Origin: a virus
IMG/VR virus record: IMGVR_UViG_3300027976_000170
Span: 1-27,583 of that record
Reading direction: 5' to 3' (one strand)
Length of the DNA: 27,583 bases
Shown: positions 728 through 26,209 of the stretch, one piece after another
Numbering within the stretch: the stretch's first letter is position 1
How the letters are laid out: each line of letters opens with the position of its first letter
The notes under the pieces: generated by a model
The model's database searches: none
Told to the model about the DNA's origin: nothing
What the model saw: the letters and a program-made list of their open reading frames with translations, nothing else
Translations under genes and position numbers: made by a program

Positions 728-3700
728 ATGGCTGATATCCAGTCAAACTTAAGAATCAATGTAGACACTGGAAATGCTTTAGCGCAAATCAAGAGTCTAC
801 AGAGACAGATATCGGCTTTTCACGACTCCCTTAGAAATTCTGGAAATGCCGCAAATCAGGCAATCTCAAATAATCTTTCTAAAAATCTTTTAAATTCTGT
901 AAATTCTACGCAGAAATTTTCTGCATCTTTAACAACAGTCAATGACGCCTCGCAGTCATTCACGAGCGCACTTGAGCGTAATAAGCTGTCCATGGGGCAG
1001 TATTTTAAGTTCGCAGGTGGCTCTACAAAAACTTTTGGCAAGCTATTTAAAAATGAATTTAATACAATTGAAACTGTTGCCCGCGAAAGAGTAAAGACTT
1101 TACAGACGCAGTATATCCGTATGGGAAGAGATGCCAACGGGGCACTTGAGGCCATTAAGGTCAGACCTCTTCGTCTAGACATGCAAAACCTGGGTACACA
1201 GGTTGCAATGACTGCACAGAAGCAGCAACTATTTAATCAGCTTATGAAGCAGGGGTCTACAAATCTTCTAAACTTTGGTAAAAATACTCAGTGGGCTGGT
1301 CGTCAGCTTATGGTTGGCTTTACAATTCCGCTTGCACTCATGGGATCTATGGCTATAAAAGAGTTTAGAAAGATTGAAGAGCAAGCTGTAAAATTCCGAA
1401 GAGTTTATGGAGGAATGTTTAACTCCAGTTCTGAGACTGAAAAGGCTTTGCAGAACGTTCGTGAGCTAGCAAACGAGTTTACCAAGTACGGAATCGCAGT
1501 CGAGAAAACCATTGATCTTGCTGCCAAGGTTGCGCAGATGGGTAACGCTGGAGCAGCACTAGAGCAGCAAGTTGTTCAGGCCACAAGGCTTTCTGTGCTG
1601 GGCGGCATGGAACAGATGGACGCACTAGATACTACGATATCGTTAACCAATGCTTTTGGAATTGAAGTTGAAGATCTGGCTAACAAAATAAACTTTCTTA
1701 ATGCAGCAGAAAACCAAACAATTCTATCTATCGAAGATTTCAACACAGCAATACCTCTCTCTGGTTCTGTTGTAAAGCAGTTGGGTGGAGACGTAGAGGA
1801 CCTCGCCGTTTTGCTAACTGCAATGCGTGAAGGTGGAATTAACGCCAGCCAAGCTGGTAATGCACTAAAGTCTAGCTTAGGTAGGCTTATTGCTCCTAGT
1901 CGTAATGCAAAGGAAACACTAGGAAGCTTTGGGATTGATGTTCTCGGCATTGTAAATGAAAATGCTGGAAACTTAATGGGTACTATCGATACCCTTGCGT
2001 ATGCACTAAATGCGCTAGACCCATTGAGCCGAGCAAGATCAATCGAGGCACTCTTTGGAAAGTTCCAGTTTGCCAGGATGTCCACTTTGTTTTCCAATAT
2101 CGTAAGGGATGGTAGCCAGGCCAGCAAAATACTAAAGCTAACGACAGCCTCTGCCGCAGAGCTGCAGGTCGTTGCAAATAGAGAGCTCAAGGCCGTAGAG
2201 GAGTCTCCAGCATTTAAGCTGCAAAAGCAAATAGAGCAGCTACAGGCATCACTAGCACCTCTAGGTGCAGAATTTATAAAGGTTCTCTCACCGCTGATTG
2301 ATTTCGGTATAAAGGTGCTGAAAAGCTTTAATAACATGGATGATGGGGCGAAGGCTTTTGTTACAAATGTAGTAACAGCTCTTGGACTCATAGCCCCCGT
2401 TGCTCTTATGAGCTTTGGTCTGATAGCCAATGGTATTGCAAACTTTATCAAGGGCGCTAACTTTGTAAGAATTTTATTTGGTAAGCTAGCTGGAGCTGGT
2501 ACTGGGTTAAATCAGATGACAACCTATATGACACAAGAACAGCTTGAAGCTACAGCGTCTGCTACATCGCTTGGTCACGCACACAGCCAGCTAACTTCAA
2601 CCTTCACATCTGAAAAAATTGCACTAGATGGCCTGATCAATTCTTATCGAAATGCCACATCTGCAATGTCTGCCTTTTCTGGTGTTAGTGCTCAGTCTAG
2701 AATTAGACCTGGAGCTGCACCAACTCAAACTAAGAAGTACGCATCTGGAGTTTTGAGCGTTCCTGGCCCAAAGGGTAAGGGAGATGTTGTACCAGCTATG
2801 CTATCTCCAGGTGAAGCAGTTATACCAGCAAAACAGGCTGATAAGTATCGAGGATTTATTCAGCAAATGATTTCGGGTGGGGTACCTGGATTCTTCAAGG
2901 GTGGTTTTATTGGTATGCCAAAGTCTTCTAAGTCAGTTATAAAAGACAGAGAAGCTGGCAAAGAAATTTTCCAGAATGTTGCTAATAGCAAATATAAAAA
3001 TGTTGCACCAACTGAGTATGGCCATCAGTTAGCTAAGACAACTGGTCACAGCTTTCCAATTTTTGGATTAGGTGGAGTTTACCTATCTCCATCTGGTAAA
3101 AAAGTTTTCGTAAAGCCAGTTAGAGACGAAAAATCCGCACTTGCTGAACAGAGGGGCACTCAGATTGCAAGGATGGCCCATGACCTAAAAGCTCCTGAGC
3201 AACGAATAGTTGTTATGCGTGACCCCACAGACATGAAAAGAAAGAGAAAGTTCTTAGCTCTAGAGTCAGACCTGAATCCGCAGTTTGTAAATAACGACGA
3301 AAAGGCTGTATTTAATAAAGAACAATACTTTAGGCAACTCACAGCATCACTTCTTAGAGCAGACAAAGACTTGGCTGCTGGAAACATGTTCGGTGATGTA
3401 GTAGCCGACGTTGGCCCAGCTGGAGTCTTCAGTCGTGCATCTGGTGTTAGGGACTATTCTTCCGACCTACCCTCTATGGAAGATCAGGCAACTGTAAACC
3501 TTCTTGGCGTTAAGGGCGGAGCAAAGCGGGCATTCGCAGAGTCAACTGTTGGACTAATGGGCGACATGGGCGGCCAACAATACCATCAGAACATGCTTAG
3601 GGAGATTCAGAGGGTACTACCCAAGCTTCGTCAGACAGTCGCTAGCTTTGGTCTGACAGATACAAAAGACATAGATGTTTATAATGGAATGATCAGGAGA

Positions 3701-6700
3701 CTTGAAGAGGGCCTTAATGTGGACTGGTCTCGATTCCACACAATGCACTCCGCTGTTAAGGTAAGTAAGCCAAGGCAGACTACAAAGCCGATGCCTGCCT
3801 ATTCAGATGGCGTTTTGAGCGTCCCTGGACCAAAGGGCAAGGGCGACGTAATACCAGCTATGCTATCTCCAGGTGAGGCTGTAATCCCTGCAAAGAAGGC
3901 ACAGAAATATCGTGGATTTATCCAGCAAATGATTTCTGGAAATATCCCTGGATTTCGTGGAGGAACTCCTGGACTTGGCATCGATGTGGGAGAGAAAAAG
4001 TTTAATCTCAATACCACTGCTTCTGCTGCAGCAATAATTCAGAAAGAGGCATCGACATTCGCAGCAACTGGGCAGGATGCTGCAAGGGTTGTGTCTCAAA
4101 CTTTGTCTTTGATAGAAAAGTCTGTAAAAACTGGTTTGGGAGACTTTAGATCAAAACTTGCAATAATTAATGAGGCTGAAACTGGCATGGGTCCAAAACC
4201 AACTCTAGCAAGGGCTGGAAACGAAAAGGCCGCAGAAAAGGTTCAAGGAAAGCCAGGCTCCATTCCAAGCATTCCAAAGCAGGTTGCAAACGATCCAAAC
4301 CTTAAAAGACCTTTTGACTTGGCAAGCGGACAAGCTCAAGGGCAGTATGAACATGCTGTATCCAAGGGCATCAGCCCTAAAAAAGCAATTGACATAACGG
4401 GATATGATCCTAATGACCCTAGCAAAACTGGGGTTGAACAATCTCATCGCGGCAAGATGGGCGCAATGAAGTCCGATCCGCTTGCTTGGGCAACTGGAGC
4501 AACAGACCTAGATTCTAGGATGGAAAATAACCAGATTGATGTTATGTCTAGGGGCGGCGAAGATGGACGTCAAATGCAAATCTTTGAGGCAGCAGCCAAA
4601 AGTCTGGGGCTAAACATAACGAGCCTTCGTGATACAATTTTGCAAAACTCAGCATTGTCAGAATCAGAAAGATCTCAATTCGCTGCCGTTACAAAGGAAG
4701 TCTCGACAAATCCAGAGCTTTCTGCTGGAAAATTTAGAACAAAAGCAGATGAAAACTCTTACATGATGAAGAATCAGATGCTTGATGCTGGCTACGAAAA
4801 TGTCGATATTCAAAATCAAACAGACTATAGAGCATACGTAGATGAAAGAGATCCAGCATTCGCTGCAGTAGATCAAAGGAAGAGCGAAATAGTTAATTCT
4901 TCTAGAAGAGCGTTGGAAGAAAAAGATCCAGAGCTGGCTCAAAAAGCTTTTAATGTTGGAGACGAAATCGGAACTAACCTTGTTGCTGGAGCAAAGCAAG
5001 GTGCAGACGAAGAGGGAGATATGCGCTCCCCATCTCGTGAAATGTTCGAGCGGGGAAAGAACCTTGTTCGTGGAATACTTGACGGTGTTCAAGAGGGATA
5101 CAGAGAGTCTTCCGGCGAAACTCTTCCAACTTCATCTGTTCCAAAGCCACCATCAATTCCAGGATTAGATGCTCCAAAGCCACCTCCAATTGTTAATCAG
5201 GATAAAGCTAGGGGGGCATCCATTGGCAAGAAGTTCTTCAAAAAGACAGAAGGCTTCCTTGAAAACCAAATTATGGGAGATGGAGCCTTTGGCAAAACAG
5301 CTATGGGCACAAATCTTAGAGAAGCATTTGATGCCAATAATGGCATAGGTCCCGTAGAGGACATAGGGGGAGAGACTCAGCTTGATAGGAGTAAGAGGGA
5401 GCTTTTAGCTCAGCAGCAAAGCGTTCAAGCAGTAAACGCAGCTCAGCTTAACCAAGAAAAATCTATCAATATCGAGGATGGTATTCTCAATGATGAAGAG
5501 GCTATCAATATTCGTAATGAGGACGGATCTCTAAAAACTAGAAGACAAATTATTCAAGAAGAGAAGGACCTTCAAAACAAAAAAGCAATGAACCAAAGGC
5601 AGCAAAATCGAGAAGACAGAAAACTTATTGCTCAAGATAGAGCTCAGAAACGTCAGTCTCGTGCAGGAAAAGCTTTGGGTGTTTTGGGGACAGCTTCTAT
5701 GGTGGCAGGAATGGCTTCTGGCGTGGAAGGGAAGGTTGGGGAAATTGCACAAAAGATAATGCCAGCCCTATTTGCTCTTTCAGCAATTGCTCCAATCCTT
5801 ATGGCACTCTCTTTGCCTCTAGCAGCACTTGCATTAATAATTGGTGGAGTTGCTTTTGGCTTGTACAAGTGGAACGAGATGATAGAGAAGTCTAGAAAAG
5901 AAGGTGAGGCTCTTGGTAATGCCTTGACTTTGTCCACCGACAAGCTTATAGCTTTTGCTGAGTCTACTGGCAAGGTGTCAGCTACGGAGGAGCGCAGAGC
6001 AACTGAGGTAAATCAGCTTTCCGGAGAAAGCGAAAAGACTAGAAAATTTGGGATGACGTTCCTGCAGTCTGATGGAGGCAAGGGGCTTCTATCAGACATA
6101 GGTACAATGACTTCTTCTGGAATGGGCAAGCAAGAGTCTGCAGAGGCGTCTGGAAGACAGCTAGCTATGATGATGGCCCAGGGTCTCATAAGCTCTGGAG
6201 AGGCATACAGTATTGCTGCAGCAATCGGCACTGAGCTGAACGATTATAATTTCTCTGCGAGCCTGGTTGGATCCCTGGTAGAGCTTACTGGTCCAAACGG
6301 GGAAGACCTAACCAAAGACCCACTGAAGGTAATGGTTGCCATTCAAGAAGAGTCTATGTCGAGTGTATCTGACTTTGCAGCACTAGCTGCAGACCAAGAG
6401 ACTTTGGCAAATGACGTCAAGGATAAGATTTCAGAAAAAAGGATTAAAGCCAGAACAGAAAGAGACTTGCGTTATGCCCAAGGCGGATTGGATAGCATTG
6501 CGGCAGGATATGAAGGCTTCATTGCAGATGCAAGCAAAATCTTATCTCTATCTCCTTTTTCTACGCTTAACCCCCAAGACTTGTACTCAGACGAAGTTGT
6601 TGGAAATAATGACTTAGAGTTTATTATTGAAAAAAACAAGGAGTCGGCAAAGCTTCAGTCCGCCAGCATTCAGGTTGGAGTAAATCAGATACAGCAAAAT

Positions 6701-9700
6701 CAGCAGCTTCTAGACTCTCTGACCAAGCAATACTCGACTCAAATAAAGCAAAAAGAAGAACAAGTTGCTCAAACCAAGGATGCAGAAAAAAAGCTAGCTT
6801 TAGAAAAAGATCTAGAAGCACTCTATGCGAAGAGAGATTCAGACTTAGCTACACTTAATGCAAGAAATGCGACATCTATGGATCAAATAGTTGCAATGAA
6901 GGACACCCTAGATCCTAAAGTGTTTGACGAAGCCATAAAAGCTTCAGTGCTTTCTCAGTTTGAAGATGACGACCCGATGAAAATACTTGCAGAAAATGCA
7001 GTTAAGAATCTTAATGCCTTAGAAAACTCTAGCTTTAAAACTCAGATTCAGTTGCAGTTTGCCTCTGGAGAGCTGAGCATGGATGGTGTTCAAAAGCTTC
7101 TTGACATAGTGGATAAAAACCCCAGAATAAAATACAGGTTTGATGCAATTGTCGACATGAAGGGGGCCGCTCAGGGGGGCCAGCTTCTAGACTTGTTAGT
7201 AAAAACTGGTATGAGCGAAGATGGAATAAGCAGACAAATCGATATTTTTGCAGGAATAAGCTCAACTGAAGACTTTGACCAGAGAATGGAAGCCCTAGCT
7301 CAAGTAGCTAACATGGCTACTGAGTATGGGTTTAAAGTAAATCTAGAAACCACAGATAATAAAAATACATTAGAAGATGTCACGAGAATGGTCAATCTCA
7401 TAAAAGACATGCCAGATACGGTTACTCAAGAATTCTTGGTGGAATTTAATAAAGATTTGAAAGACCCAGACCTTCAAGCAATTATTGACAATTGGGATAC
7501 CATTTTCGGCGTGGGCATGACTGGCTCAGCACAAGTGCTTGTTGATTTTGTGGCAACTGGAGATTTTGACTCGATTAGCAGATACTTTGATAGTCTCGGC
7601 CTAGACGCACAATCAAGGGCTGCATATGGTAAGTCTATGGCGATGAGCCCAGGATTCGAGCAAGAGATAAGAGCCAAAGCAGCAGCTAATGATGTCGCGA
7701 ACCGACTTAACAAAACGGAAGAGGGAAAAACCCCCAAAAAAGACCCTAGCGGGAACAAGTCAGACCCAGTTGAGAACATTCTTAATAAACTAAAGCAGTT
7801 AAGAAACCATACGATTGATGCTACTGGTGGTTTTAAAGAACTGCTTCGTGTTCTTGGGGGCAACAAGGAAATAACAGTATTTAGGGGAATGGATCAACTT
7901 AGCTTGGGTGCAAAGTTTGGCAAAGAGTTTGCTGGATACCTTTCTGGATTAGACGAAGACACGCGCAAACTTTTTGTAGAGTTTAAAAAGGGTGGGCCAA
8001 TCCTTACAGAAATTGGCCAAGCAATGCGGAAGGCATTTGCTGATGTTGCAATTGGTGAATTCCAGATAAATCTAGTAGAATCCATGACTGCTCTTTTAAA
8101 TCAAAGAACTGCAATGGAGACACTCACAAAAAAGGGTGTCGAGTACGCAGATGCCCTTAAGCTAGCAACAAATGAAACCATAGCACTTGCTATTGCTTCA
8201 GGAGAGCTAAGCGGAGGAGAGCTAGATGAATTAATCGGTAAAGTAAAAGAATTCAGGAAAGAATCAGAAATTAGCAGTGTCATAGACGACGTTAACAAGG
8301 CGATAAATGATTTTGTCGATGACTTATCCGTAAGAAGAAAGATAAACTTAAACTATTCTGACCTGCAAGAGCAAGCAATCCTTAATGACGGCACCCTACG
8401 GGCAATGGTTAAGCTTGGACAGGCTGGATCAGATGCCTTTAAGACAAGACTTCAGCAAATAATGTCAAGCCCAGATTTCTTAAATGATGTATTCTCAAGG
8501 GGCTTTTCGAATGTACAAGAAGCATTTAGGGTGCAAGAAGAGCAATTATCTAAATCCTTTGAGAATGCCCTAAAGAGTGGAACACTAGCAGACTTCAGTT
8601 TTGCTGAAAAATTCGGTATTGATGAGCTAGCAGCTATGATAGGGATGACTGAACAGCAAATAAAAGACTTAATGGACATAGATGGCCCAGTATCTATAAT
8701 TGAGATTGCCGAGCAGCAGATAGCTACCTTAAACTATGAGATGGATGACTTCCAGGCACAGCTAGATGAAATTAGCCTAAAAGAAGAAAAGATTAATAGC
8801 AAGTACGAGGAAAGACTCTCTGCTCTAGATAAGACTCTAAAGATAAACAAGGAGAATGCAGCTATACAGAAGAGCCAGCTTTCGCTTGCATCAGCATTAT
8901 CAACTGGAGACATAGCAGCAGCAGCGAAGGCTGCTCAAGAACTTAGACAGCAGCAAGCAGATGCCAGAGAAGTAAGCCAAAAGAACACCCTTGAAAAATC
9001 TAGAGAGCAAGAACTAGCGGCAATTGTATCGTCAAACCTTCTAACCAGAGAAGAGATTGAAACCAGGGTTAAAGATATACAAAGGAAAATAGCTGATATA
9101 GAAGAGTCTAGGCTAGAGCCAGCACAAAGACTACTAGAGTTGTCAGGACTACTAGAGAGCAAGCAGCTAGATTATCAAACAGTTTTGAATAAGACCAAAG
9201 AAGCTTGGGATAACATTAAGCTATCTGTCGATGCAGCAAACATAACTGGAAAAGACTTTATCGATACAATGAATGCTGCGATAGCAGCAGCTGCCGCATT
9301 GCCAGGAGCAATTGCTGCCCAAAACGATGCACTTGGTGGAGCAGGAGAGCCAAGACCAGCTAATTCGACAGAAGCAGCTGCAGCGCCAGAAGCAATTAAG
9401 CCAAGAATTAACTCATCATACACTGTTGCTGCAGAAGCACAAGCTGCTGGAAACACCAGGGCAGCCGTTATAGATAGGGACACGGCGAAGACTGCTGCTA
9501 TAGCTGCTGTTCGGGATGGAGGACTATCGGTTGGGAACACAACAATAAAGGCTTCCAGCACTCTAAATTTTGCTGAGCAAGTCCAAGCTATTGTTCTTTC
9601 TAATAGAGAGGCATTTGCTAATTCCACAAGCGCTTCTCAAAAGAGTGCTCTTCAAAAAGAAAACGTTCGATTGATGCAAGCGTCTGGTCTAAGGTTTGCT

Positions 9701-10078
9701 GCTGGAGGCGCTGTGCCTGGAGATATGGGTGGCGGAAAGATAAGAAGATTTGCCGCTGGCGGTGGAGTAAAGTATTATCCTATGGGAGGCCTTATTCCAT
9801 ACAAGGCTCAGGGTGGACTTTTCCAAAGCATTAACACGGATACTGTGCCAGCAATGCTAACTCCAGGAGAGTTCGTGGTTAGGCGTTCAGCCGTAGATGG
9901 CTTTGGAGTTAATAATTTAAAATCAATAAATAATGGCACATACGCAGGCGAATCAGTGTATAATTATAGCGTCAACGTAAACGTTAAATCAGACTCAAAT
10001 CCAGATCAAATAGCTAGATCCGTAATGAATCAAATTAAGCAGGTAGACTCTATGAGACTAAGGGGTAGTAGGTTCTAA
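728..10078 (+). CDS. Giant tail tape measure protein with embedded kinase-like segment
   Basis: The 3116-residue protein sets tail length, fills the tail tube and normally leaves with the DNA at ejection. Start ATG 728 follows AAGAGGTG (713-720). A hydrophobic stretch at about 189-212 leads into a TP901-type tape measure core (about 215-560). More hydrophobic stretches lie near 543-574 and 1647-1716, a tail-associated SPSR motif at 1434-1437, and helical coiled-coil-like sequence at about 2668-2838. The Gly-rich C-terminus carries VPAMLTPGE, common at tape measure ends. Two further copies of that motif sit in near-identical 49-residue repeats (674-722 and 1028-1076), enclosing a segment with kinase-like motifs. 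Residues about 1140-1430 match nothing I recognise. At 0.15 nm per residue this implies a tail up to about 460 nm, less if the insert stays folded. The stop overlaps the next start (TAATG). Confidence 0.95.
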   Translation: MADIQSNLRINVDTGNALAQIKSLQRQISAFHDSLRNSGNAANQAISNNLSKNLLNSVNSTQKFSASLTTVNDASQSFTSALERNKLSMGQYFKFAGGSTKTFGKLFKNEFNTIETVARERVKTLQTQYIRMGRDANGALEAIKVRPLRLDMQNLGTQVAMTAQKQQLFNQLMKQGSTNLLNFGKNTQWAGRQLMVGFTIPLALMGSMAIKEFRKIEEQAVKFRRVYGGMFNSSSETEKALQNVRELANEFTKYGIAVEKTIDLAAKVAQMGNAGAALEQQVVQATRLSVLGGMEQMDALDTTISLTNAFGIEVEDLANKINFLNAAENQTILSIEDFNTAIPLSGSVVKQLGGDVEDLAVLLTAMREGGINASQAGNALKSSLGRLIAPSRNAKETLGSFGIDVLGIVNENAGNLMGTIDTLAYALNALDPLSRARSIEALFGKFQFARMSTLFSNIVRDGSQASKILKLTTASAAELQVVANRELKAVEESPAFKLQKQIEQLQASLAPLGAEFIKVLSPLIDFGIKVLKSFNNMDDGAKAFVTNVVTALGLIAPVALMSFGLIANGIANFIKGANFVRILFGKLAGAGTGLNQMTTYMTQEQLEATASATSLGHAHSQLTSTFTSEKIALDGLINSYRNATSAMSAFSGVSAQSRIRPGAAPTQTKKYASGVLSVPGPKGKGDVVPAMLSPGEAVIPAKQADKYRGFIQQMISGGVPGFFKGGFIGMPKSSKSVIKDREAGKEIFQNVANSKYKNVAPTEYGHQLAKTTGHSFPIFGLGGVYLSPSGKKVFVKPVRDEKSALAEQRGTQIARMAHDLKAPEQRIVVMRDPTDMKRKRKFLALESDLNPQFVNNDEKAVFNKEQYFRQLTASLLRADKDLAAGNMFGDVVADVGPAGVFSRASGVRDYSSDLPSMEDQATVNLLGVKGGAKRAFAESTVGLMGDMGGQQYHQNMLREIQRVLPKLRQTVASFGLTDTKDIDVYNGMIRRLEEGLNVDWSRFHTMHSAVKVSKPRQTTKPMPAYSDGVLSVPGPKGKGDVIPAMLSPGEAVIPAKKAQKYRGFIQQMISGNIPGFRGGTPGLGIDVGEKKFNLNTTASAAAIIQKEASTFAATGQDAARVVSQTLSLIEKSVKTGLGDFRSKLAIINEAETGMGPKPTLARAGNEKAAEKVQGKPGSIPSIPKQVANDPNLKRPFDLASGQAQGQYEHAVSKGISPKKAIDITGYDPNDPSKTGVEQSHRGKMGAMKSDPLAWATGATDLDSRMENNQIDVMSRGGEDGRQMQIFEAAAKSLGLNITSLRDTILQNSALSESERSQFAAVTKEVSTNPELSAGKFRTKADENSYMMKNQMLDAGYENVDIQNQTDYRAYVDERDPAFAAVDQRKSEIVNSSRRALEEKDPELAQKAFNVGDEIGTNLVAGAKQGADEEGDMRSPSREMFERGKNLVRGILDGVQEGYRESSGETLPTSSVPKPPSIPGLDAPKPPPIVNQDKARGASIGKKFFKKTEGFLENQIMGDGAFGKTAMGTNLREAFDANNGIGPVEDIGGETQLDRSKRELLAQQQSVQAVNAAQLNQEKSINIEDGILNDEEAINIRNEDGSLKTRRQIIQEEKDLQNKKAMNQRQQNREDRKLIAQDRAQKRQSRAGKALGVLGTASMVAGMASGVEGKVGEIAQKIMPALFALSAIAPILMALSLPLAALALIIGGVAFGLYKWNEMIEKSRKEGEALGNALTLSTDKLIAFAESTGKVSATEERRATEVNQLSGESEKTRKFGMTFLQSDGGKGLLSDIGTMTSSGMGKQESAEASGRQLAMMMAQGLISSGEAYSIAAAIGTELNDYNFSASLVGSLVELTGPNGEDLTKDPLKVMVAIQEESMSSVSDFAALAADQETLANDVKDKISEKRIKARTERDLRYAQGGLDSIAAGYEGFIADASKILSLSPFSTLNPQDLYSDEVVGNNDLEFIIEKNKESAKLQSASIQVGVNQIQQNQQLLDSLTKQYSTQIKQKEEQVAQTKDAEKKLALEKDLEALYAKRDSDLATLNARNATSMDQIVAMKDTLDPKVFDEAIKASVLSQFEDDDPMKILAENAVKNLNALENSSFKTQIQLQFASGELSMDGVQKLLDIVDKNPRIKYRFDAIVDMKGAAQGGQLLDLLVKTGMSEDGISRQIDIFAGISSTEDFDQRMEALAQVANMATEYGFKVNLETTDNKNTLEDVTRMVNLIKDMPDTVTQEFLVEFNKDLKDPDLQAIIDNWDTIFGVGMTGSAQVLVDFVATGDFDSISRYFDSLGLDAQSRAAYGKSMAMSPGFEQEIRAKAAANDVANRLNKTEEGKTPKKDPSGNKSDPVENILNKLKQLRNHTIDATGGFKELLRVLGGNKEITVFRGMDQLSLGAKFGKEFAGYLSGLDEDTRKLFVEFKKGGPILTEIGQAMRKAFADVAIGEFQINLVESMTALLNQRTAMETLTKKGVEYADALKLATNETIALAIASGELSGGELDELIGKVKEFRKESEISSVIDDVNKAINDFVDDLSVRRKINLNYSDLQEQAILNDGTLRAMVKLGQAGSDAFKTRLQQIMSSPDFLNDVFSRGFSNVQEAFRVQEEQLSKSFENALKSGTLADFSFAEKFGIDELAAMIGMTEQQIKDLMDIDGPVSIIEIAEQQIATLNYEMDDFQAQLDEISLKEEKINSKYEERLSALDKTLKINKENAAIQKSQLSLASALSTGDIAAAAKAAQELRQQQADAREVSQKNTLEKSREQELAAIVSSNLLTREEIETRVKDIQRKIADIEESRLEPAQRLLELSGLLESKQLDYQTVLNKTKEAWDNIKLSVDAANITGKDFIDTMNAAIAAAAALPGAIAAQNDALGGAGEPRPANSTEAAAAPEAIKPRINSSYTVAAEAQAAGNTRAAVIDRDTAKTAAIAAVRDGGLSVGNTTIKASSTLNFAEQVQAIVLSNREAFANSTSASQKSALQKENVRLMQASGLRFAAGGAVPGDMGGGKIRRFAAGGGVKYYPMGGLIPYKAQGGLFQSINTDTVPAMLTPGEFVVRRSAVDGFGVNNLKSINNGTYAGESVYNYSVNVNVKSDSNPDQIARSVMNQIKQVDSMRLRGSRF
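2747..2893 (+). repeat. Direct repeat copy 1 inside the tape measure gene
   Basis: This 147-bp in-frame repeat encodes residues 674-722 (beginning GVLSVPGPKGKGD, ending GVPGF). It is the same length as the copy at 3809-3955, and 44 of 49 encoded residues are identical. It contains VPAMLSPGEAVIP, a variant of the motif found at the C-terminal end of this protein. Differences at the DNA level are mostly third-base changes, so the duplication is old and held at protein level. Confidence 0.9.
2894..3808 (+). other. Protein-kinase-like segment within the tape measure protein
   Basis: Residues 723-1027 lie exactly between the two direct repeats. In order they show a Gly-rich hairpin (FGLGGVYLSPSGKK), a candidate ATP-binding Lys796 in VFVKP, a helix with candidate partner Glu807 (ALAEQRGTQIARM), a hinge-like strand (KFLALESDLN), a catalytic-loop-like D881-LAAG-N886 (the Asp-x4-Asn spacing of kinases), and D894-VG resembling the metal-binding Asp-x-Gly. 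The order and spacing resemble HipA-like or PI3/4-kinase-like folds. The usual His of the catalytic loop is absent, and the stretch between Asn886 and Asp894 is short. It may be an active kinase, a decayed one, or a chance resemblance. Confidence 0.5.
3809..3955 (+). repeat. Direct repeat copy 2 inside the tape measure gene
   Basis: This is the second 147-bp in-frame copy, encoding residues 1028-1076 (ending NIPGF). It differs from copy 1 at five residues only (V to I, Q to K, D to Q, G to N, V to I). With copy 1 it frames the kinase-like segment. Confidence 0.9.
9839..9880 (+). repeat. Partial third copy of the repeat motif at the tape measure C-terminus
   Basis: Residues 3038-3051 read DTVPAMLTPGEFVV, matching the core DVVPAMLSPGEAVI of the two internal repeats. 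Only the core is shared. The surrounding Gly-rich sequence (FAAGGGV, PMGGLIP) is of the kind usually seen just before the end of tape measure proteins. Confidence 0.7.
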
Positions 10079-18426: not shown

Positions 18427-18734
18427 TGGCTGATCGCAAGGAGAGATTCTCTTTGCTCAGCCGATACGGCAAGTATCATACTGCACGGTATGAGCAGAGA
18501 CCTCAAATCAATTTAAACGTAGAACAATGGGCAGCAGACGCTCTAGTAGAGTCTTATACCTTAGAGTATTGCTACGACCTGCTACAATACTATTTCGAAG
18601 TAGCCCAAAATCCAACATGGAAATATTTTGCTAACTACGCACATGACATCATTTCTAAGCGTGAAGTATACAAGCAAGATTTATCCGAGAGACAGCAGCG
18701 AAGAGCTGCAGCAAAGAAGTGGTTGAGTGAATAA
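18426..18734 (+). CDS. Small helical protein preceding the helicase gene
   Basis: This 102-residue, mostly helical protein is rich in Tyr, Arg and Lys (YTLEYCYDLLQYYFEVAQNP), with a strongly basic C-terminal helix (SERQQRRAAAKKWLSE). Its start overlaps the previous stop and its end overlaps the helicase start by 8 bases, so the two are probably translated together. A helicase loader would fit this place and composition, but no sequence motif supports that. The function is unknown. Confidence 0.65.
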   Translation: MADRKERFSLLSRYGKYHTARYEQRPQINLNVEQWAADALVESYTLEYCYDLLQYYFEVAQNPTWKYFANYAHDIISKREVYKQDLSERQQRRAAAKKWLSE

Positions 18735-19947
18735 CGTAGAGTCCAAATTAATATCGGCAGTCCTAGAGGATAAGCAGGTGCACGTTTTGCTACAGGCAAA
18801 CGTGGACAACCTTCTCCGTACCCATAAAGACATCTGGGAGTTTATACGAACCTACTCTGAGAGGAATGGGTCTGTACCTCCAACTTCAATACTTGTAGAA
18901 AAGTTTAGGGACTTTCAGCCTGTCCCAGGAATCGGAACCACCAAGTATCACTTGGAAGAGTTGCAGGCAGAGTATCTTAATGATAGCCTAAAGGACATGA
19001 TCCGCACGGCAGCATCAGATATTCAAAATGGCGAAGGCGTCAAGGTATTGGAGTCATTAATTACTGATACTTCTGCCCTAAAGAAAAACACCTCTGCGAT
19101 CAGGGACATTGACGCCACTGACATCGAAGACGCTGTTGCCTATTACGAGCATGTGCAAAAGCAAACTGCTCTTGGCGTACAAGGTATTAGAACGGGGCTT
19201 CCAGGATTTGACGACTATCTGCCAGCAGGAATTACTGCAGGACAGCTAGGGGTGTTCCTTGCGTATCCAGGTATTGGTAAGTCTTGGTTGTCCCTATACT
19301 TTGCGGTACAGGCATGGAAGCTAGGCAAGACTCCTATGGTAGTAAGCCTAGAGATGAGCGAGACAGAAGTTCGTAACCGTGTATTCACAATTATGGGAGA
19401 GGGGCTCTGGTCTCACAGGAAGCTTTCTGCAGGCGACGTAGAGGTAGAGGATCTCAGGCGTTGGCACAAGAGCAAGCTAGAGGGTAAGCCAGAGTTTCAC
19501 ATCATATCGAACGACTCTGGTGGAGAGGTAACGCCCTCGGTCATTAGAGGTAAGATCGATCAGTATAAACCAGACTTTATTATTGTTGACTACCTACAGC
19601 TTATGTCTCCAAACCAGAAGTCTGACAACGAGACTGTTAGGATGAAGAACCTTTCTCGAGAACTAAAGCTAATGGCTATCTCAGAAGAGATACCTATCCT
19701 AGCCATATCCTCAGCGACCCCAGATGACGTCACGAAGCTAGATACCGTGCCTACCCTAGGACAAACTGCTTGGAGTCGTCAGATCGCTTACGACGCCGAC
19801 TGGGTACTTGCGCTGGGACGTGGACCAAACTCTGATGTAATTGAATGCGTATTTAGGAAAAACCGTAATGGTTTTATGGGGGAGTTTATGGTTCAGGCAG
19901 ATTTTGATAAAGGTTGGTATAAATACCGAGCTTTCGAGGATGTGTAG
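18727..19947 (+). CDS. dnaB: Replicative DNA helicase, DnaB-like
   Basis: The 406-residue protein starts at GTG 18727 within the end of the preceding gene. It would form a hexameric ring that unwinds DNA at the fork using ATP. The N-terminal helical domain covers about residues 1-110. The RecA-type motor shows Walker A at 181-186 (PGIGKS, Lys185), a MVVSLEMSE helicase strand, Walker B ending in Asp288 (DFIIVDYLQLM), and a C-terminal KNRNG motif followed by a GEFMVQADFDKGWYKY strand, as in DnaB proteins. It is somewhat short compared with bacterial DnaB (about 450-470 residues). The primase gene follows after one small gene, giving a normal helicase-primase module. Confidence 0.93.
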   Translation: MNNVESKLISAVLEDKQVHVLLQANVDNLLRTHKDIWEFIRTYSERNGSVPPTSILVEKFRDFQPVPGIGTTKYHLEELQAEYLNDSLKDMIRTAASDIQNGEGVKVLESLITDTSALKKNTSAIRDIDATDIEDAVAYYEHVQKQTALGVQGIRTGLPGFDDYLPAGITAGQLGVFLAYPGIGKSWLSLYFAVQAWKLGKTPMVVSLEMSETEVRNRVFTIMGEGLWSHRKLSAGDVEVEDLRRWHKSKLEGKPEFHIISNDSGGEVTPSVIRGKIDQYKPDFIIVDYLQLMSPNQKSDNETVRMKNLSRELKLMAISEEIPILAISSATPDDVTKLDTVPTLGQTAWSRQIAYDADWVLALGRGPNSDVIECVFRKNRNGFMGEFMVQADFDKGWYKYRAFEDV

Positions 19948-19953
19948 TATACT
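19948..19953 (+). promoter_or_regulatory. Possible -10 box for a leaderless transcript
   Basis: TATACT lies seven bases before ATG 19960, so transcription would begin at or next to the A of the start codon. No Shine-Dalgarno sequence precedes that ATG, which fits leaderless translation as used widely in actinobacteria. No convincing -35 is seen at 17-18 bases, so this is weak. Confidence 0.25.
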
Positions 19954-19959
19954 ATATGT

Positions 19960-20292
19960 ATGGAAAGCTATCACCACAAGGTAATCAAAAGTTTCAATCT
20001 CCAGGGAGACATCTACGATGACTCCGCAATAGTAAGGCTACGAAAAGAGTACGCCACACTTTTGCGCACAGAGATGAGTCTTTCTGGCTACGTTCCTAGA
20101 ATAGATATATCTCAAGACTTCACAATAGAATACAACGAAAAATCAAAGATATTCAACTTTAAACTAACAATATATGGTTCATACATAGGAAAGAAAAAAA
20201 GCGAATGGGTACTGGGACTAGACGGTTCAAAACCAATTTATACTCAGAAGAGCAAATCAAACGAGTTCTCACGGGATCAGGCCTCACAATAG
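19960..20292 (+). CDS. Conserved unknown protein overlapping the primase gene
   Basis: The 110-residue protein starts at ATG 19960 without a visible ribosome site. It opens with YHHKVIKSFNLQGDIYDDSA, then a helix, then a strand-rich part (IFNFKLTIYGSYIGKKKSEW). It carries a weakly ordered polar C-terminus. Its last 88 bases overlap the primase gene in another frame. Genes of this kind often precede primase in related phages as I recall, which supports it being real, but I cannot name a function. The charged, soluble sequence suggests an accessory replication factor. Confidence 0.65.
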   Translation: MESYHHKVIKSFNLQGDIYDDSAIVRLRKEYATLLRTEMSLSGYVPRIDISQDFTIEYNEKSKIFNFKLTIYGSYIGKKKSEWVLGLDGSKPIYTQKSKSNEFSRDQASQ

Positions 20293-21149
20293 AGGGTGAA
20301 GTCGATGTTGACTTCTTGCTGTTCTGCCCATTCCACCCAAACCACCGTACTCCAGCTGGAGAAGTTGACAAGTCCAAGGGAACTTTCTTTTGTTTTTCCT
20401 GCCACAAGGTTGCAGACTTAGAAGAACTGGTCATGCATACAACTGGCAGAACTTATTTCGAGTCAGCCAGATTTATCAAGAGCAAGCAAGCAGAAACTAA
20501 CATAAGCCTAGAAGTTGAGAGAAAGCTAATAGACAAGCCTACGTACGTCTTGTTCGATGAAGTTACTATTCAGAGGCTTGCCTCTACGGCCTTACAGTCT
20601 CCGAGAGCAAAAAACTACTATTCTGGCAGAAACATTTCCGTAGAGTCCATGGAGACTTTTAAGCTTGGCTATTCTGAAAAGCGGGACATGGTGACTATTC
20701 CAGTCCACGCCCCAAACGGAATGCCTCTTGGTTTTGTGGGCAGATCCATCGAGGGTAAAGAGTTTAAGAACACCCCAGGATTGCCCAAAGCAAAGACCTT
20801 GTTCAACTTGCATAGAGTAAAGAATGCAGACAGAGTTTATGTTGTTGAATCTTCCTTTGACGCTATAAGGCTACACCAGTGTGGCTTTCCAGCGGTAGCT
20901 ACCTTGGGATCAAACGTATCCAACATACAAACAGACCTACTACAAAAATACTTCAATAACGTAATTGTTATTGCGGATAATGATGAAGCAGGCGGTAACA
21001 TGAAAGACAGGATAATTAAAAAACTTGGCTCTCGAGTATCCGTAATACAACTAAGTGAAAAATACAAAGACATTGGCGACATGTCTGACGAAGATATAAA
21101 AAAGTTGGAGTATTCGTTTGACAAATCAATAGCCAACATGCTAAAATAA
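20205..21149 (+). CDS. dnaG: DNA primase (CHC2 zinc finger and TOPRIM)
   Basis: The 314-residue protein would make RNA primers for lagging-strand synthesis. A CHC2-type zinc-binding set is visible: Cys41, His44, Cys63, Cys66 (CPFHPNHRTP and FCFSCHK). The TOPRIM catalytic region has Glu215 (VVESSFDAIRL) and the Asp258-x-Asp260 pair (IADNDEAGG). It lacks the C-terminal helicase-binding domain of bacterial DnaG (about 600 residues), which is common for phage primases. I keep ATG 20205 because the following RFKTNLYSEEQIKRVL is a typical primase N-terminus, even though this makes an 88-base overlap with the upstream gene. The ribosome site is weak, suggesting translational coupling. Confidence 0.9.
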   Translation: MGTGTRRFKTNLYSEEQIKRVLTGSGLTIEGEVDVDFLLFCPFHPNHRTPAGEVDKSKGTFFCFSCHKVADLEELVMHTTGRTYFESARFIKSKQAETNISLEVERKLIDKPTYVLFDEVTIQRLASTALQSPRAKNYYSGRNISVESMETFKLGYSEKRDMVTIPVHAPNGMPLGFVGRSIEGKEFKNTPGLPKAKTLFNLHRVKNADRVYVVESSFDAIRLHQCGFPAVATLGSNVSNIQTDLLQKYFNNVIVIADNDEAGGNMKDRIIKKLGSRVSVIQLSEKYKDIGDMSDEDIKKLEYSFDKSIANMLK

Positions 21150-21173
21150 TACAAATAAAACAAGGAGAAAAAA

Positions 21174-21830
21174 ATGAGTATTACAAGAGGACTAAAAGAC
21201 ATCAACGCACTACTAGACAAGCCAAAGTATGAGTCTGGCGGAGAAAAGGTTCGATGGCTGAAGCTTGCAGACGGACAGTCGGCAAAGATTAGGTTCATCG
21301 AAGAGCTTGACGAAGACTCTTCTAGCTATTCAGAGGATAGAGGTCTTGCAGTAGTTGTTAAGGAGCACACGAATCCCAAGGATTACAAGCGTAAGGCTTT
21401 GGACACCATGGATTCTGAAGGTCGTGACTGGGCAGAAGAGATGTCCAGAAAAGACCCAAAGGCAGGATGGAAAGCTCGACTACGTTTCTACTGTAACGTT
21501 CTTGTAGATGATGGTCTTGAGCCTCCATACGTTGCAGTTTGGTCCCAGGGTATTGGTAAGCAGTCTGCGTTCAATAACCTACGAGAGTATGCTCTAGAAA
21601 CTGGAAGCATTTCAAATATGTCGTGGAAGATTAAGCGTAATGGTCAGGGAACAGAGACTAGCTACACCTTGATCCCGACATCTCCAGATTCTGAGCCTTT
21701 TGACTGGTCTGGACACACACCCTTCAATCTAGAGAAGGTTGTTCGTCACGTGCCATATGCAGAGCAGGAAAGCTTTTACCTGGGCTTTGACGCTCCAGCC
21801 TCGCTAACCTCTACCAATATTGACTGGTAA
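21174..21830 (+). CDS. Single-stranded DNA-binding protein, gp32-like
   Basis: The 218-residue protein has a strong AAGGAG upstream of ATG 21174, as expected for a protein needed in bulk. The N-terminal SITRGLKDINALLDK and the later WLKLADGQSAKIRFIEEL, RLRFYCNVLVDDG and WSQGIGKQSAFNNLREY follow the pattern of the T4 gp32-like OB-fold proteins annotated in actinophages. In T4 gp32 zinc is held by one His and three Cys. Here His65 is kept, but the positions I align with the cysteines read Asp77, Asp85 and Ala88. No acidic C-terminal tail is obvious (ends STNIDW). A hairpin terminator follows directly. Confidence 0.75.
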   Translation: MSITRGLKDINALLDKPKYESGGEKVRWLKLADGQSAKIRFIEELDEDSSSYSEDRGLAVVVKEHTNPKDYKRKALDTMDSEGRDWAEEMSRKDPKAGWKARLRFYCNVLVDDGLEPPYVAVWSQGIGKQSAFNNLREYALETGSISNMSWKIKRNGQGTETSYTLIPTSPDSEPFDWSGHTPFNLEKVVRHVPYAEQESFYLGFDAPASLTSTNIDW

Positions 21831-21840
21831 GTAACACATT

Positions 21841-21869
21841 GTGGGGGTAGCTAAGGTTACCCCCACTTT
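21841..21869 (+). terminator. Rho-independent terminator after the SSB gene
   Basis: GTGGGGGTA (21841-21849) pairs perfectly with TACCCCCAC (21858-21866), and a G-T and a C-G pair extend the stem to a four-base TAAG loop. TTT follows, then a U-rich but interrupted stretch. It would end transcripts from the SSB gene before dnaE. Confidence 0.85.
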
Positions 21870-21879
21870 GTCATTTCTA

Positions 21880-21908
21880 TTGACTTTTCATACTTCCCAT
21901 GGCATACT
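21880..21908 (+). promoter_or_regulatory. Sigma-70-like promoter for dnaE
   Basis: TTGACT (21880-21885) and CATACT (21903-21908) are separated by exactly 17 bases. Transcription would start near 21915, leaving a leader of about 22 bases with AAAGAGGA before the TTG start of dnaE. Coming right after the terminator, it would give the dnaE-recA block its own control. Confidence 0.75.
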
Positions 21909-21936
21909 TATTAAACACAAAAAAGAGGACACTTAA

Positions 21937-24900
21937 TTGACGTATAACGGACTCCATGTTCACACACACTATAGTTTGTTTGATGGGATTGCTACGCCCC
22001 AGGAGTATGTCGACAGGGCAGAGATTTTAGGCATGAAAGCTTTAGCCATAACCGATCACGGATCTCTGTCTGGACACAGAGAGTTTTACCGAATGGCTAA
22101 GGAAAAGGGAATTAAACCTGTCCTAGGAGTAGAAGCCTACATAACTGCAGACAGATTTGACCAGCGAGGCAACGATGCCCGTGAAGGATTACTAGACTTA
22201 GTTTACAACCACGTTATCATCCTTGCTAAGAATCAGATTGGCTTAGAGAACCTAAACAAGCTAAATGAGATTGCTTGGACAGAAGGTTTCTTCAAGAAGC
22301 CACGCATTGACTACGAAGTTCTAGAGAAGTATGCAGAGGGGCTCATAGTGACCTCTGGCTGCCTCTCAGGAGCCCTCGCAAAGGCTATCGAAGCAGAAGA
22401 GCTGGCAGAAGCTAAGAGGATCATAGAGTGGCACAAGAGGGTATTTGGGGACGATTACTATATTGAGATCATGCCACATAATCCTCCAGAAGTAAACGTG
22501 CAATTGCTTGCATTGGCAGATCAGTATGGAGTTAAGCCTATCGTTACCCCAGACTGCCATCACGCAGATGAAAGCCAGAAAGAGATTCAGGAATTAAAGC
22601 TTATTCTTAATAGCTATTCCAACAAAGTATTAAAAGAATCTACCTACGACAAGTCACTGAAGCACGAAGGCCTAATGGATAGGCTTGACTATTTGTATGG
22701 TGAAAGGAAAATGTCTTTTGCCAACTTCGAGATTCACCTGCTTTCTGACGAAGAGATGCGCAACGCCATGAAGGCTCAGGGTATTGATAGAGAAGACATG
22801 TATGACTCTACTCGTGAAGTTGCGGATAAGGTGGAAGACTATGAGATCCAAGACCATCTAGACCTTTTGCCTGTTCAGTACCAGAACCCTAACGGAGAGC
22901 TTCGAGAGCTTGCCCTAGCTGGACTAGAGCTTCGAGGTGTGAACACTGAGGAATATCGGGAAAGACTAGACGAAGAGCTAGAGATCATTCAGAACAAGGA
23001 CTTTGGTCCTTATTTTCTGGTTGTTCGTTCTATGATTGCTTGGGCAAAGAAACAGAACATTATGGTTGGACCAGGAAGAGGCTCTTCCGCAGGATCCTTG
23101 CTCTGCTACGCCTTAGAGATTACGGACATTGACCCTATTCAGCATGGACTCCTGTTCTTTAGGTTTATCAATCCAGAGCGTAATGACTTTCCAGATATCG
23201 ATACCGACATTCAGGACACAAGGCGTGAAGACGTCAAAGATTATTTAGTTAGACAGTACAAGCATGTTGCATCCATCGCTACATTCCTACAGTTTAAAGA
23301 CAAGGGTGTTGTCCGAGACATAGCTCGAGTCTTGCACATCCCTCTGACAGACGTCAACAAGGTTCTAAAGGTAATTGACACCTGGGAAGATTACTGCCGA
23401 TCCAAGCAGTCTCAATGGTTTAGGGACAAGTACCCAGAGATTGAACACTACGGAGAGCAGTTGAGGGGCCGAATCAGGGGCACTGGTATCCACGCAGCAG
23501 GTGTTGTAACATCCAAGCAGCCTATCTTCAAGTTTGCCCCTATGGAGACTAGGGTCTCTCCTGGAAACAAGGAGAGGATTCCCGTAGTCGCAGTAGACAT
23601 GGAAGAAGCAGAGCGTATCGGTCTGATTAAGATAGACGCACTAGGTCTAAAAACATTATCTGTTCTAAAAGACACCCTAGACATAATCGAAAGTCGCCAT
23701 GGGAAAAAGATAGATCTTCTTAAGACAGATATGGAAGATTCCAAGGTGTATCAAATGCTGTCTGACGGATACACCAAGGGTGTGTTTCAGTGTGAAGCAA
23801 CACCTTACACAAACCTTCTCGTAAAGATGCGTGTTAAAAACTTTGCAGAGCTTACGGCATCCAATGCTTTGGTCCGTCCAGGAGCTGCGAACACTATTGG
23901 TAAAGACTACATTGCTCGGAAGCAAGGCCGTCAAAGCATAAGCTACCACCACCAGGTATTCAAGCAGTTTACTGTTGAGACCTATGGCTGTGTCCTGTAT
24001 CAAGAGCAGGTTATGCAAGCTTGTGTTCACTTGGGTGGCATGTCTATGGCCGAAGCTGACAAGGTTCGTAAAATCATTGGAAAGAAGAAAGACGCAAAAG
24101 AGTTTGACGTTTTCAAGGACAAGTTTATTGCTGGCGCTTCTCAGTATCTTAGCCCTAACGTGGCTGCCGATCTGTGGCATGACTTTGAAGCACACGCAGG
24201 GTATTCTTTTAATAAGTCTCACGCCGTAGCCTACTCCACGCTTTCATACTGGACGGCATGGCTAAAGACACACTATCCCCTAGAGTTTATGTATTCCATT
24301 CTAAAGAATGAGAAAGACAAGGATGCTAGGACAGAGTACCTTATCGAAGCTAAGCGTATGGGGATTCCCATCAAGCTTCCTCATGTTAACGACTCTGACG
24401 GCGACTTTAAGATCGAAGGCAAGGGTATCCGTTTTGGGCTAACAGGAATCAAGTACATCTCAGATAACATTGCAGCTAAGTTCATGGCTTCCAGACCGTT
24501 TAGCTCTTACCAAGAGCTGGAGAAGTTCTGCCTGACCAAAGGTAGTGGCGTGAATAGCAGGTCCTTGCAAGCACTACGGGTAGTCGGGGCAGCAACATTT
24601 GAAGACAATCCCCGTAACGACCAAGAGATTAAGGAAAACCTTTATGACTTCTTAAATCTACCAGAGTTCAATATATCAGTTCCGCAACACTTCCACGCAT
24701 TCATAAGCGACGTTGAGGAGTTCGAGGAAAAGGGATCCTACATCTTAATGGGTATGGTCAAGAGCATTAAGCGTGGACCTGGGTGGTCTCGTGTAGAGCT
24801 ACTTGATAAGACTGGCAGCACTGGGATCTTTGATGACGAGCAAACAACCATAGAGCCAGGAAAGACTTACCTTCTTCTAGCTAGTGATAACAGGGTGTTG

Positions 24901-25212
24901 AATGCTATTCAGATTGACGATATTGGTAAGGTAGAATCATCACTAACTAAATACCTTAACTACAAGACTCTTCCCTTTAAGGATGAGGAGATGTACGTGG
25001 TATCGTTTAAGCCTAGGGTAACTAAAGCTGGAAAGAAAATGGCATACTTAACACTGGCAGATGCTTCCAGGGAGCTTCATCCAGTAACAGTCTTCCCTAC
25101 GCAATTTGCTAAGGCATACATGAAAATACAAGAAGGCAGCTCGTATGTCTTCAGCTTCGCAAAAACAAAAGATGGAACAATAATTATGGAGGACGTACAT
25201 GACAACAATTGA
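21937..25212 (+). CDS. dnaE: DNA polymerase III alpha subunit, DnaE type
   Basis: This 1091-residue replicative polymerase starts at TTG 21937, seven bases after AAAGAGGA. The N-terminal PHP domain shows all nine metal ligands expected of an active proofreading PHP: His7, His9, Asp16, His41, Glu66, His92, Cys142, Asp206 and His208. The polymerase site has GPGRGSSAGS, the catalytic pair Asp422 and Asp424 (PDIDTD), and the third Asp567 (IKIDALGLKTL). Helix-hairpin-helix-like sequence follows. The C-terminus carries two OB-like stretches (about 925-985 and 1015-1088) and then stops. The tau-binding domain at the end of bacterial alpha subunits is missing, which explains the shorter length. It shares an operon with recA, whose start lies 14 bases inside this gene. 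Confidence 0.96.
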   Translation: MTYNGLHVHTHYSLFDGIATPQEYVDRAEILGMKALAITDHGSLSGHREFYRMAKEKGIKPVLGVEAYITADRFDQRGNDAREGLLDLVYNHVIILAKNQIGLENLNKLNEIAWTEGFFKKPRIDYEVLEKYAEGLIVTSGCLSGALAKAIEAEELAEAKRIIEWHKRVFGDDYYIEIMPHNPPEVNVQLLALADQYGVKPIVTPDCHHADESQKEIQELKLILNSYSNKVLKESTYDKSLKHEGLMDRLDYLYGERKMSFANFEIHLLSDEEMRNAMKAQGIDREDMYDSTREVADKVEDYEIQDHLDLLPVQYQNPNGELRELALAGLELRGVNTEEYRERLDEELEIIQNKDFGPYFLVVRSMIAWAKKQNIMVGPGRGSSAGSLLCYALEITDIDPIQHGLLFFRFINPERNDFPDIDTDIQDTRREDVKDYLVRQYKHVASIATFLQFKDKGVVRDIARVLHIPLTDVNKVLKVIDTWEDYCRSKQSQWFRDKYPEIEHYGEQLRGRIRGTGIHAAGVVTSKQPIFKFAPMETRVSPGNKERIPVVAVDMEEAERIGLIKIDALGLKTLSVLKDTLDIIESRHGKKIDLLKTDMEDSKVYQMLSDGYTKGVFQCEATPYTNLLVKMRVKNFAELTASNALVRPGAANTIGKDYIARKQGRQSISYHHQVFKQFTVETYGCVLYQEQVMQACVHLGGMSMAEADKVRKIIGKKKDAKEFDVFKDKFIAGASQYLSPNVAADLWHDFEAHAGYSFNKSHAVAYSTLSYWTAWLKTHYPLEFMYSILKNEKDKDARTEYLIEAKRMGIPIKLPHVNDSDGDFKIEGKGIRFGLTGIKYISDNIAAKFMASRPFSSYQELEKFCLTKGSGVNSRSLQALRVVGAATFEDNPRNDQEIKENLYDFLNLPEFNISVPQHFHAFISDVEEFEEKGSYILMGMVKSIKRGPGWSRVELLDKTGSTGIFDDEQTTIEPGKTYLLLASDNRVLNAIQIDDIGKVESSLTKYLNYKTLPFKDEEMYVVSFKPRVTKAGKKMAYLTLADASRELHPVTVFPTQFAKAYMKIQEGSSYVFSFAKTKDGTIIMEDVHDNN

Positions 25213-26209
25213 TGAGGCTCTAGCTTTGTTAGATCCAAGGTTACGAAAGAAAGTGGCACCAGCCGTGGGCATTAAGACAGAGTTTCAGCCTACTCCCAGT
25301 CCGGGACTTAATAAAGCATTGGGTGGAGGATTCCCCTATGGAAGGCAGGTTCTTCTTTGGGGAAGCAAGTCAAGTGCAAAATCTTCTCTGTGCCTGCAGA
25401 CAATCGGGTTGGCACAAAAAGAAGGAAAGCTTTGTGCTTGGGTTGACGCAGAGATGTCCTACGATGCAGAATGGGCTGAGAGGCTAGGAGTAGATCCCAC
25501 ACAGCTGATTTACTCAGAGGCCAGGAGCATCAACGACATGGTAGATGTTGTCGTGGCCCTGCTGCATGCAGGCGTAGACATGATTGTGATAGATAGTATA
25601 AGCTCTCTTCTTCCAGCGGTATACTTCGAGAAAGACTCTACAGAGTTGAAGCAGCTAGACAACACTAAGCAGATTGGGTCAGAGTCAAAGGACCTAAAGC
25701 ATGCTTGGATGATGATTAACTATGCGAATAATCAGGAGAAGCCAGCTCTTATTGTGGCTATCTCTCAGGCCAGGAATAACATTACAGCAATGTATACTCA
25801 GTCTATTCCAACTGGAGGTAATGCAACTCAGTTCTTTTCCTCGACTATCGTAAAGCTGTTCTCATCCTCATCTGATGGTCAGGCCATTAAAGGCAAGATT
25901 CAAGTTGGAGACAAGCTGATAGAGCAAAAGCTAGGTCGGACAGTTCGCTGGGAGGTTCAAAACTCTAAGACCTCTGCACCAGGAGAGTCTGGAGAGTATG
26001 GGTTTTACTATAAGGGAGATCTTATTGGAATCGATGTTATTGGAGACCTCGTAGACACGGCAGAGATGGTGGGCTATGTGGAGCGTACAGGGGCTTGGTA
26101 CATCCTTCCAGACGGGACCAAGGTTCAGGGAAGAGATGCGTTCGTAAAACGTGTCAGGGAGGACTCTGCCCTTCAGCAAGAGCTTAGGGGCAAGGTTAAT
26201 GGGCTCTAG
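25199..26209 (+). CDS. recA: RecA-like recombinase
   Basis: The 336-residue strand-exchange ATPase starts at ATG 25199 after GGAGG, overlapping the dnaE end by 14 bases. The Walker A loop is G55-SKSS-A60-K61-S62, so the usual Gly before the Lys is Ala. The catalytic Glu85 (WVDAEMSYD) and Walker B Asp132 (DMIVIDSISSLLP) are in place. The DNA-binding loop region is visible around AISQARNNITAMYTQSIPTG and GGNATQFFSS. It likely supports recombination-dependent replication and repair together with the SSB and the downstream nucleases. The C-terminal lobe is retained, though the acidic tail of bacterial RecA is missing. Confidence 0.93.
   Translation: MTTIDEALALLDPRLRKKVAPAVGIKTEFQPTPSPGLNKALGGGFPYGRQVLLWGSKSSAKSSLCLQTIGLAQKEGKLCAWVDAEMSYDAEWAERLGVDPTQLIYSEARSINDMVDVVVALLHAGVDMIVIDSISSLLPAVYFEKDSTELKQLDNTKQIGSESKDLKHAWMMINYANNQEKPALIVAISQARNNITAMYTQSIPTGGNATQFFSSTIVKLFSSSSDGQAIKGKIQVGDKLIEQKLGRTVRWEVQNSKTSAPGESGEYGFYYKGDLIGIDVIGDLVDTAEMVGYVERTGAWYILPDGTKVQGRDAFVKRVREDSALQQELRGKVNGL

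Follow-up and report, generated by a model that had tools for sequence, protein, structure and literature searches.

The virus record IMGVR_UViG_3300027976_000170 was analysed over 27,583 nucleotides (positions 1 to 27,583 of the record, hereafter the window), which include a long gene for a tape measure protein (TMP). In a Pfam search, residues 246-444 of the TMP match PF10145 (PhageMin_Tail) above the cut-off (E 3.6e-23), and by tblastn 507 phage records have annotated tape measures that match its N-terminus; Streptomyces phages give the top scores, and the matches to Streptomyces and Gordonia phage tape measures reach a best E-value of 2e-63. Embedded in the protein is a domain that a preliminary description, made from the sequence of the interval 2894-3808, had proposed to be kinase-like. 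This interval is framed exactly by two direct repeats, absent from that description, that are identical at 44 of 49 amino acids and 80% identical as DNA.

Predicted fold and sequence family

The AlphaFold2 model of residues 727-1011, built with 79 homologues, has a mean pLDDT of 91.8 and a pTM of 0.91 (an earlier model with 3 sequences, at pLDDT 37, was not usable). Two strands (783-786 and 792-798) flank a Gly-rich turn and are followed by a helix (801-816) bearing E807, a hinge-like strand (841-848), a helix (864-877), the loop from D881 to N886, and D894-x-G896. This is the order of elements read earlier from the sequence (Gly-rich hairpin, Lys, Glu helix, hinge, Asp/Asn and Asp-x-Gly), and K796, E807, D881, N886, D894 and G896 stand exactly where the preliminary description had placed them. 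When compared with the PDB using VIA-align 2, the model is closest to CotH (Z 11.8), CtkA (10.7), PI4KIIa (9.8) and LepB (9.2), then to Golgi casein kinase/Fam20C (9.0), HipA (8.9) and VPS34 (8.7), below which PI3K, PI4KIIIb and HipA entries continue to rank 50. Apart from LepB, all of the 50 PDB matches listed (Z 11.8-7.7) are kinases of atypical or lipid type. The model has the two lobes of the atypical kinase superfamily (CotH/HipA/PI3-4K/Fam20); the structure prediction and fold search that had been proposed thus returned the kinase-like fold, and the domain is confidently predicted to be kinase-folded.

Some results weigh against a kinase assignment. Foldseek also puts kinases on top among PDB entries, but its best E-value is 9.5e-3, and the fold call therefore leans on the VIA-align 2 Z-scores and on the residues. 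Sequence profiles do not link the domain significantly to any named kinase family: it has no significant match in sequence searches of Pfam, PHROGs, PDB and INPHARED (hits to Pyridox_oxase_2, E 0.19, and ribosomal L2, E 0.35, were dismissed as chance), the HipA_C profile (PF07804) matches neither 12 members of the domain at E-values up to 10 nor the record, the CotH profile (PF08757) does not match the domain, and for PI3/PI4 kinases and Fam20C there was no Pfam match and no such PDB sequence in the profile search. The comparison with HipA, PI3/4-kinase and protein kinase profiles that the preliminary description had proposed thus gave no link from Pfam or PDB. An hhalign comparison with a HipA profile of 9 sequences scored 15.4, which is within what column-shuffled controls gave (up to 19.8); its best path aligns E807, the hinge and D881/N886 with their HipA counterparts. 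Because no kinase profile matches and the HipA comparison lies within the shuffled range, the claim is limited to fold and active-site pattern and does not extend to membership in HipA or CotH. On the predicted model, the domain is a new sequence family on a known kinase fold.

The kinases of polyvalent proteins, which lack the C-terminal lobe and have other signature residues (PMC5512222), were set aside since their signature features differ. The loss of the C-terminal subdomain that marks them is not seen here, as the model retains helix 864-877 and five helices past D894. The Gln that is conserved in their last N-lobe strand is likewise missing, the strand here having E846/S847, with E in 106/111 homologues.

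Structural matches were also found among viral proteins in BFVD, where six phage proteins have E-values better than 1e-3; their TM-scores, taken over the query, reach 0.55. Some of them carry the annotation ADP-ribosyltransferase or portal protein, and another is gp13 of the archaeal tailed virus HHTV-1. The latter (L171:9436-12738), a head-module gene between terminase and a MuF-like gene with the motif VLTGNRDIHGGNFIVDDDGVPQPVDNG, has two zincin-like HExxH motifs and a HipA/PI4K-like catalytic loop and is unannotated.

Conservation and distribution of the domain

Among 111 unique homologues, with identities down to 38%, K796, D881, N886 and D894 are found in 111/111 and E807 in 109/111. One search pattern included the DKDL motif, so these counts are partly biased, and a second set was therefore gathered via the TMP N-terminus only. 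In the resulting 23 unique homologues (38-76% identity), which give unbiased counts, the beta3 Lys, alphaC Glu, catalytic Asp and metal-binding Asn and Asp are each present in 23/23. Across these sequences 31 of 285 columns are invariant and 254 vary; the invariant K/E/D/N columns (7 of 68) include all five named residues (hypergeometric p 2e-6), the remaining two being N924 and D879, which stands where an HRD-like motif has its His. The residues on which the preliminary description had staked its proposal, Lys796, Glu807, Asp881, Asn886 and Asp894, thus do not vary in homologous tape measures. It had also noted, as grounds for doubt, a missing catalytic His and a short gap between Asn886 and Asp894. 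These features are not counted against activity because the D-x4-N and D-x-G set is invariant, because D879 occupies the His position, and because the short gap is modelled at high confidence. A sequence with Gln in place of E807 (AALSQQRATMIVR) is found in L048 and its close copies L049-L050, which retain the remaining catalytic residues.

In close pairs the domain has a dN of 0.036-0.052 against a dS of 0.57-0.85 (dN/dS about 0.04-0.07), and between the window and the related locus L004 identity is 76% in the domain compared with 69% and 44% in the rest of the TMP. Judged from these substitution patterns, the domain is shown to be under purifying selection, and the model with its conserved residues makes it likely that it is catalytically active.

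A first search with the domain alone returned near-identical contigs only; a tape measure of 67% identity then opened the family, and iterated alignment searches of viral contigs raised the number of loci from 13 to 58, 257 and at least 341. No relative of the domain was found in 84,980 prokaryotic species genomes (two scans, covering bacteria and archaea) or in 50,697 phage records. The family goes unannotated because it is absent from Pfam, PHROGs and cultured-phage records, despite its presence in at least 341 viral contigs. All 170 open reading frames (ORFs) examined contain one domain each, and the complete ones have at least 1790 residues. The conserved TMP N-terminus is present in 165 of these ORFs, and at least four of the other five run off the 5' end of their contig. 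By this homology the domain appears always to lie within a TMP wherever this can be checked, starting anywhere from about residue 600 to residue 1367.

Repeats, exchange of cargo and genomic setting

Repeats similar to those of the window flank the domain in many relatives, and the slot that they frame differs in content. Of 80 TMPs gathered via the N-terminus, 24 carry the domain; among the 64 that are scorable, 24 have it and 40 do not. Those without the kinase hold other sequence in the slot, in one case (L181) with weak DUF3626 similarity. Relatives at 62-64% N-terminal identity to the window lack the domain, and others at 59% have it. Some TMPs with N-termini 95-100% identical contain kinase alleles that are about 50% identical. 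For instance, in the TMPs of L218 and L232 identity is 95-100% for residues 1-600, about 20% for residues 721-1020, 40-62% in the kinase and mostly 67-95% for residues 1440-2220. L014 and L025 show the reverse pattern, with 80-90% identity in the kinase (about 85%) and mostly 45-70% in the rest, falling to 18-20% past the downstream repeat. These mosaic pairs, together with presence and absence of the domain, indicate that the module moves between tape measures and that tape measures change their cargo; at the level of sequence comparison, the domain is shown to be a swapped module. The repeats could allow one cargo to recombine for another.

Several further observations concern the variable parts of these proteins. 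The L181 slot (L181:11291-13990) reaches an E-value of 2.4e-4 to DUF3626, and L184, L188 and L243 likewise have other domains and no kinase. The slot of many related TMPs has a His-containing motif, such as Q[ED][ST]H or DRAHV...AENNLSNSL, which might mark another enzyme family. In the TMPs of L218, L232, L237, L251, L087 and L226, about residues 2280-2460 and the region from residue 2640 to the C-terminus are also strongly variable among otherwise similar proteins. The features of the window's TMP are collected in Table 1.

Table 1. Positions in the window of the tape measure gene and of the features within it.
Feature	Residues	Position	Strand	Basis
Tape-measure protein ORF (3116 aa)		728..10078	+	PF10145 (PhageMin_Tail) and tblastn to annotated tape measures
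Upstream 49-residue repeat, GVLSVPGPKGKGDVVPAMLSPGEAVIPAK...PGF	674-722	2747..2893	+	80% DNA identity with downstream copy
Predicted atypical-kinase-fold domain	727-1011	2906..3760	+	AlphaFold2 model and VIA-align 2
Gly-rich hairpin FGLGGVYLSPSGKKVFVK, closing with beta3-type Lys796		3062..3115	+	Modelled strands; K796 in 111/111 and 23/23
Glu807 on alphaC-like helix	807	3146..3148	+	109/111 (2 Gln) and 23/23
Hinge-like strand KFLALESD	841-848	3248..3271	+	Strand in model
Catalytic loop D879-K-D881-L-A-A-G-N886	879-886	3362..3385	+	D879, D881, N886 in 111/111 and 23/23
Metal-binding D894-V-G896, DFG-like	894-896	3407..3415	+	Invariant in 111/111 and 23/23
Downstream 49-residue repeat	1028-1076	3809..3955	+	Sequence comparison with upstream copy
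Second cargo-like stretch between downstream repeat and SPSREM motif, VEQSHRGKMGAMKSDPLAW...		3956..5026	+	Translation; no Pfam match
SPSREMFERG motif closing the variable region	1434-1443	5027..5056	+	Sequence comparison
Long hydrophobic stretch downstream of the kinase domain, candidate membrane-inserting part	1673-1715	5744..5872	+	Hydropathy
Third, diverged motif copy near C-terminus, DTVPAMLTPGEFVV		9839..9880	+	Sequence comparison

The TMP gene lies within a tail module, with genes for minor tail and tail proteins after it. A replication module follows right after the tail genes (18727-27278) and encodes a DnaB-like helicase, a primase, a single-stranded DNA-binding protein (SSB), a DNA polymerase III alpha subunit with a PHP domain (21937-25212), a RecA/UvsX-like recombinase and a DnaQ-like exonuclease. 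The resemblance of the TMP to tape measures of actinophages, and a GC content of 42%, suggest a freshwater actinobacterium as the putative host.

Proposed role and comparison with known systems

The occurrence of a kinase-shaped domain with an intact active site in a slot of varying content suggests that these uncultured phages may have in the tail a protein-modifying enzyme that is delivered along with the DNA. It is probable, in our estimate, that the domain is an atypical kinase (a new family with a CotH/HipA/PI4K/Fam20-like fold) serving as exchangeable effector cargo in the TMP, delivered by the tail and modifying a host target at entry. The domain would bind ATP and metal, sit in the tail tube, reach or enter the cell when the TMP is ejected ahead of the DNA, and, as infection begins, modify a host target by transfer of phosphate or perhaps of AMP. 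The tail tube is occupied by the tape measure, which is ejected on infection, and tape-measure-like effectors with interchangeable, reconfigurable domains are found in actinobacterial injection systems (PMC13277306). Delivery of the kinase to the host with the TMP is plausible. That the domain is delivered into the ATP-containing cytoplasm is an assumption, and a further point on the opposing side; the location of ATP favours a target in the cytoplasm, and the hydrophobic stretch could place N-terminal cargo across the membrane. The swapping pattern suggests that the target or counter-measure varies between hosts. A wider reading, held tentatively and short of an even chance, is that a repeat-framed tail-ruler slot in a widespread uncultured phage lineage holds interchangeable enzymes, this new kinase family among them, and that their delivery before the genome serves to modify the host or to disarm host defences.

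The kinase-fold enzyme could act instead on phage proteins in the producing cell (the TMP, the tube or chaperones, in tail assembly) and not in the next host. The domain is made in that cell, where ATP is plentiful, and CotH, the best structural match, phosphorylates structural spore coat proteins (PMC7821199). This role is unlikely, since presence in some and absence from other closely related TMPs, and alleles about half identical within nearly identical TMPs, are not as expected for a step required in assembly. Slightly less likely is a degenerate kinase fold (pseudokinase) that serves the TMP as a binding or spacer module, as might be argued from the short Asn-Asp gap, from the Gln at E807 in 2/111 homologues, and from the kinase activity being a prediction from sequence and model; against degeneration, there is no variation in the Lys, the catalytic Asp or either metal ligand, whereas 254/285 columns vary. 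The atypical kinase fold is known for varied chemistries (AMPylation, glutamylation and phosphorylation), and the structural matches include the lipid kinases PI4K and PI3K besides protein kinases. We give a low probability, below that of a pseudokinase, to the same fold with other chemistry or substrate, whether AMPylation (as SelO), glutamylation (as SidJ) or phosphorylation of small molecules or lipids. That the domain is no kinase at all, its small motifs a coincidence and its structural match middling as the Foldseek E-value and the shuffled HipA columns might allow, is very improbable and largely refuted by the kinase-only match list with its top Z of 11.8, the confident model and the placement of the named residues at five of seven invariant charged columns.

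If the proposed effector is active, a modifying enzyme would arrive no later than the first phage DNA, and before any phage gene is expressed. If the proposal is true, anti-defence effectors might be sought in tape measures, which could also offer a natural scaffold for delivering proteins. Phages are known to inject enzymes from their heads, and wall-cutting domains have been described in tape measures. Neither a kinase in a tape measure nor a swappable cargo slot there was found in the literature searched, which consisted of open-licence papers, so that absence is not proof. What is new here is the tape-measure carrier and the kinase family, which are not described in the searchable literature; virion-delivered enzymes as such are known.

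As a fold, the domain is most like the CotH spore-coat kinase (PDB 5jda, 5jd9), with 216 residues aligned at the top Z-score and the Lys/Glu and Asp/Asn/Asp arrangement of atypical kinases, but sequence identity is 7-8%, PF08757 is not matched, and the TMP domain is carried inside a phage tape measure. HipA and CtkA are also similar (Z 8.9 and 10.7), and the D-x4-N spacing equals that of D309-N314 in E. coli HipA; unlike HipA, the domain has an Asn-to-Asp gap of 8 instead of 18, no HipA_C match and no HipB-type partner seen. Type II PI4K, PI3K, Fam20C and the LepB N-terminal domain belong to the same fold group (Z 9.8 to 8.6), whereas no sequence similarity to the TMP domain was detected and their context is different. 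As carriers, MuF fusions, T4 Alt and polyvalent proteins (PMC5512222) combine large phage proteins of virion type with fused enzymes that are believed to work at entry, but they belong to the head or portal. Lytic transglycosylase, Rpf and peptidase domains are likewise enzymes built into tape measures; those enzymes act on the cell wall, whereas a kinase fold would act on a target requiring ATP, probably cytoplasmic. The Sle1/Tme effectors of actinobacterial contractile injection systems differ in belonging to bacterial contractile systems, in having C-terminal modules, and in that a kinase is not mentioned in their description (PMC13277306), but they share with the phage TMPs a tape-measure-derived carrier and interchangeable functional domains.

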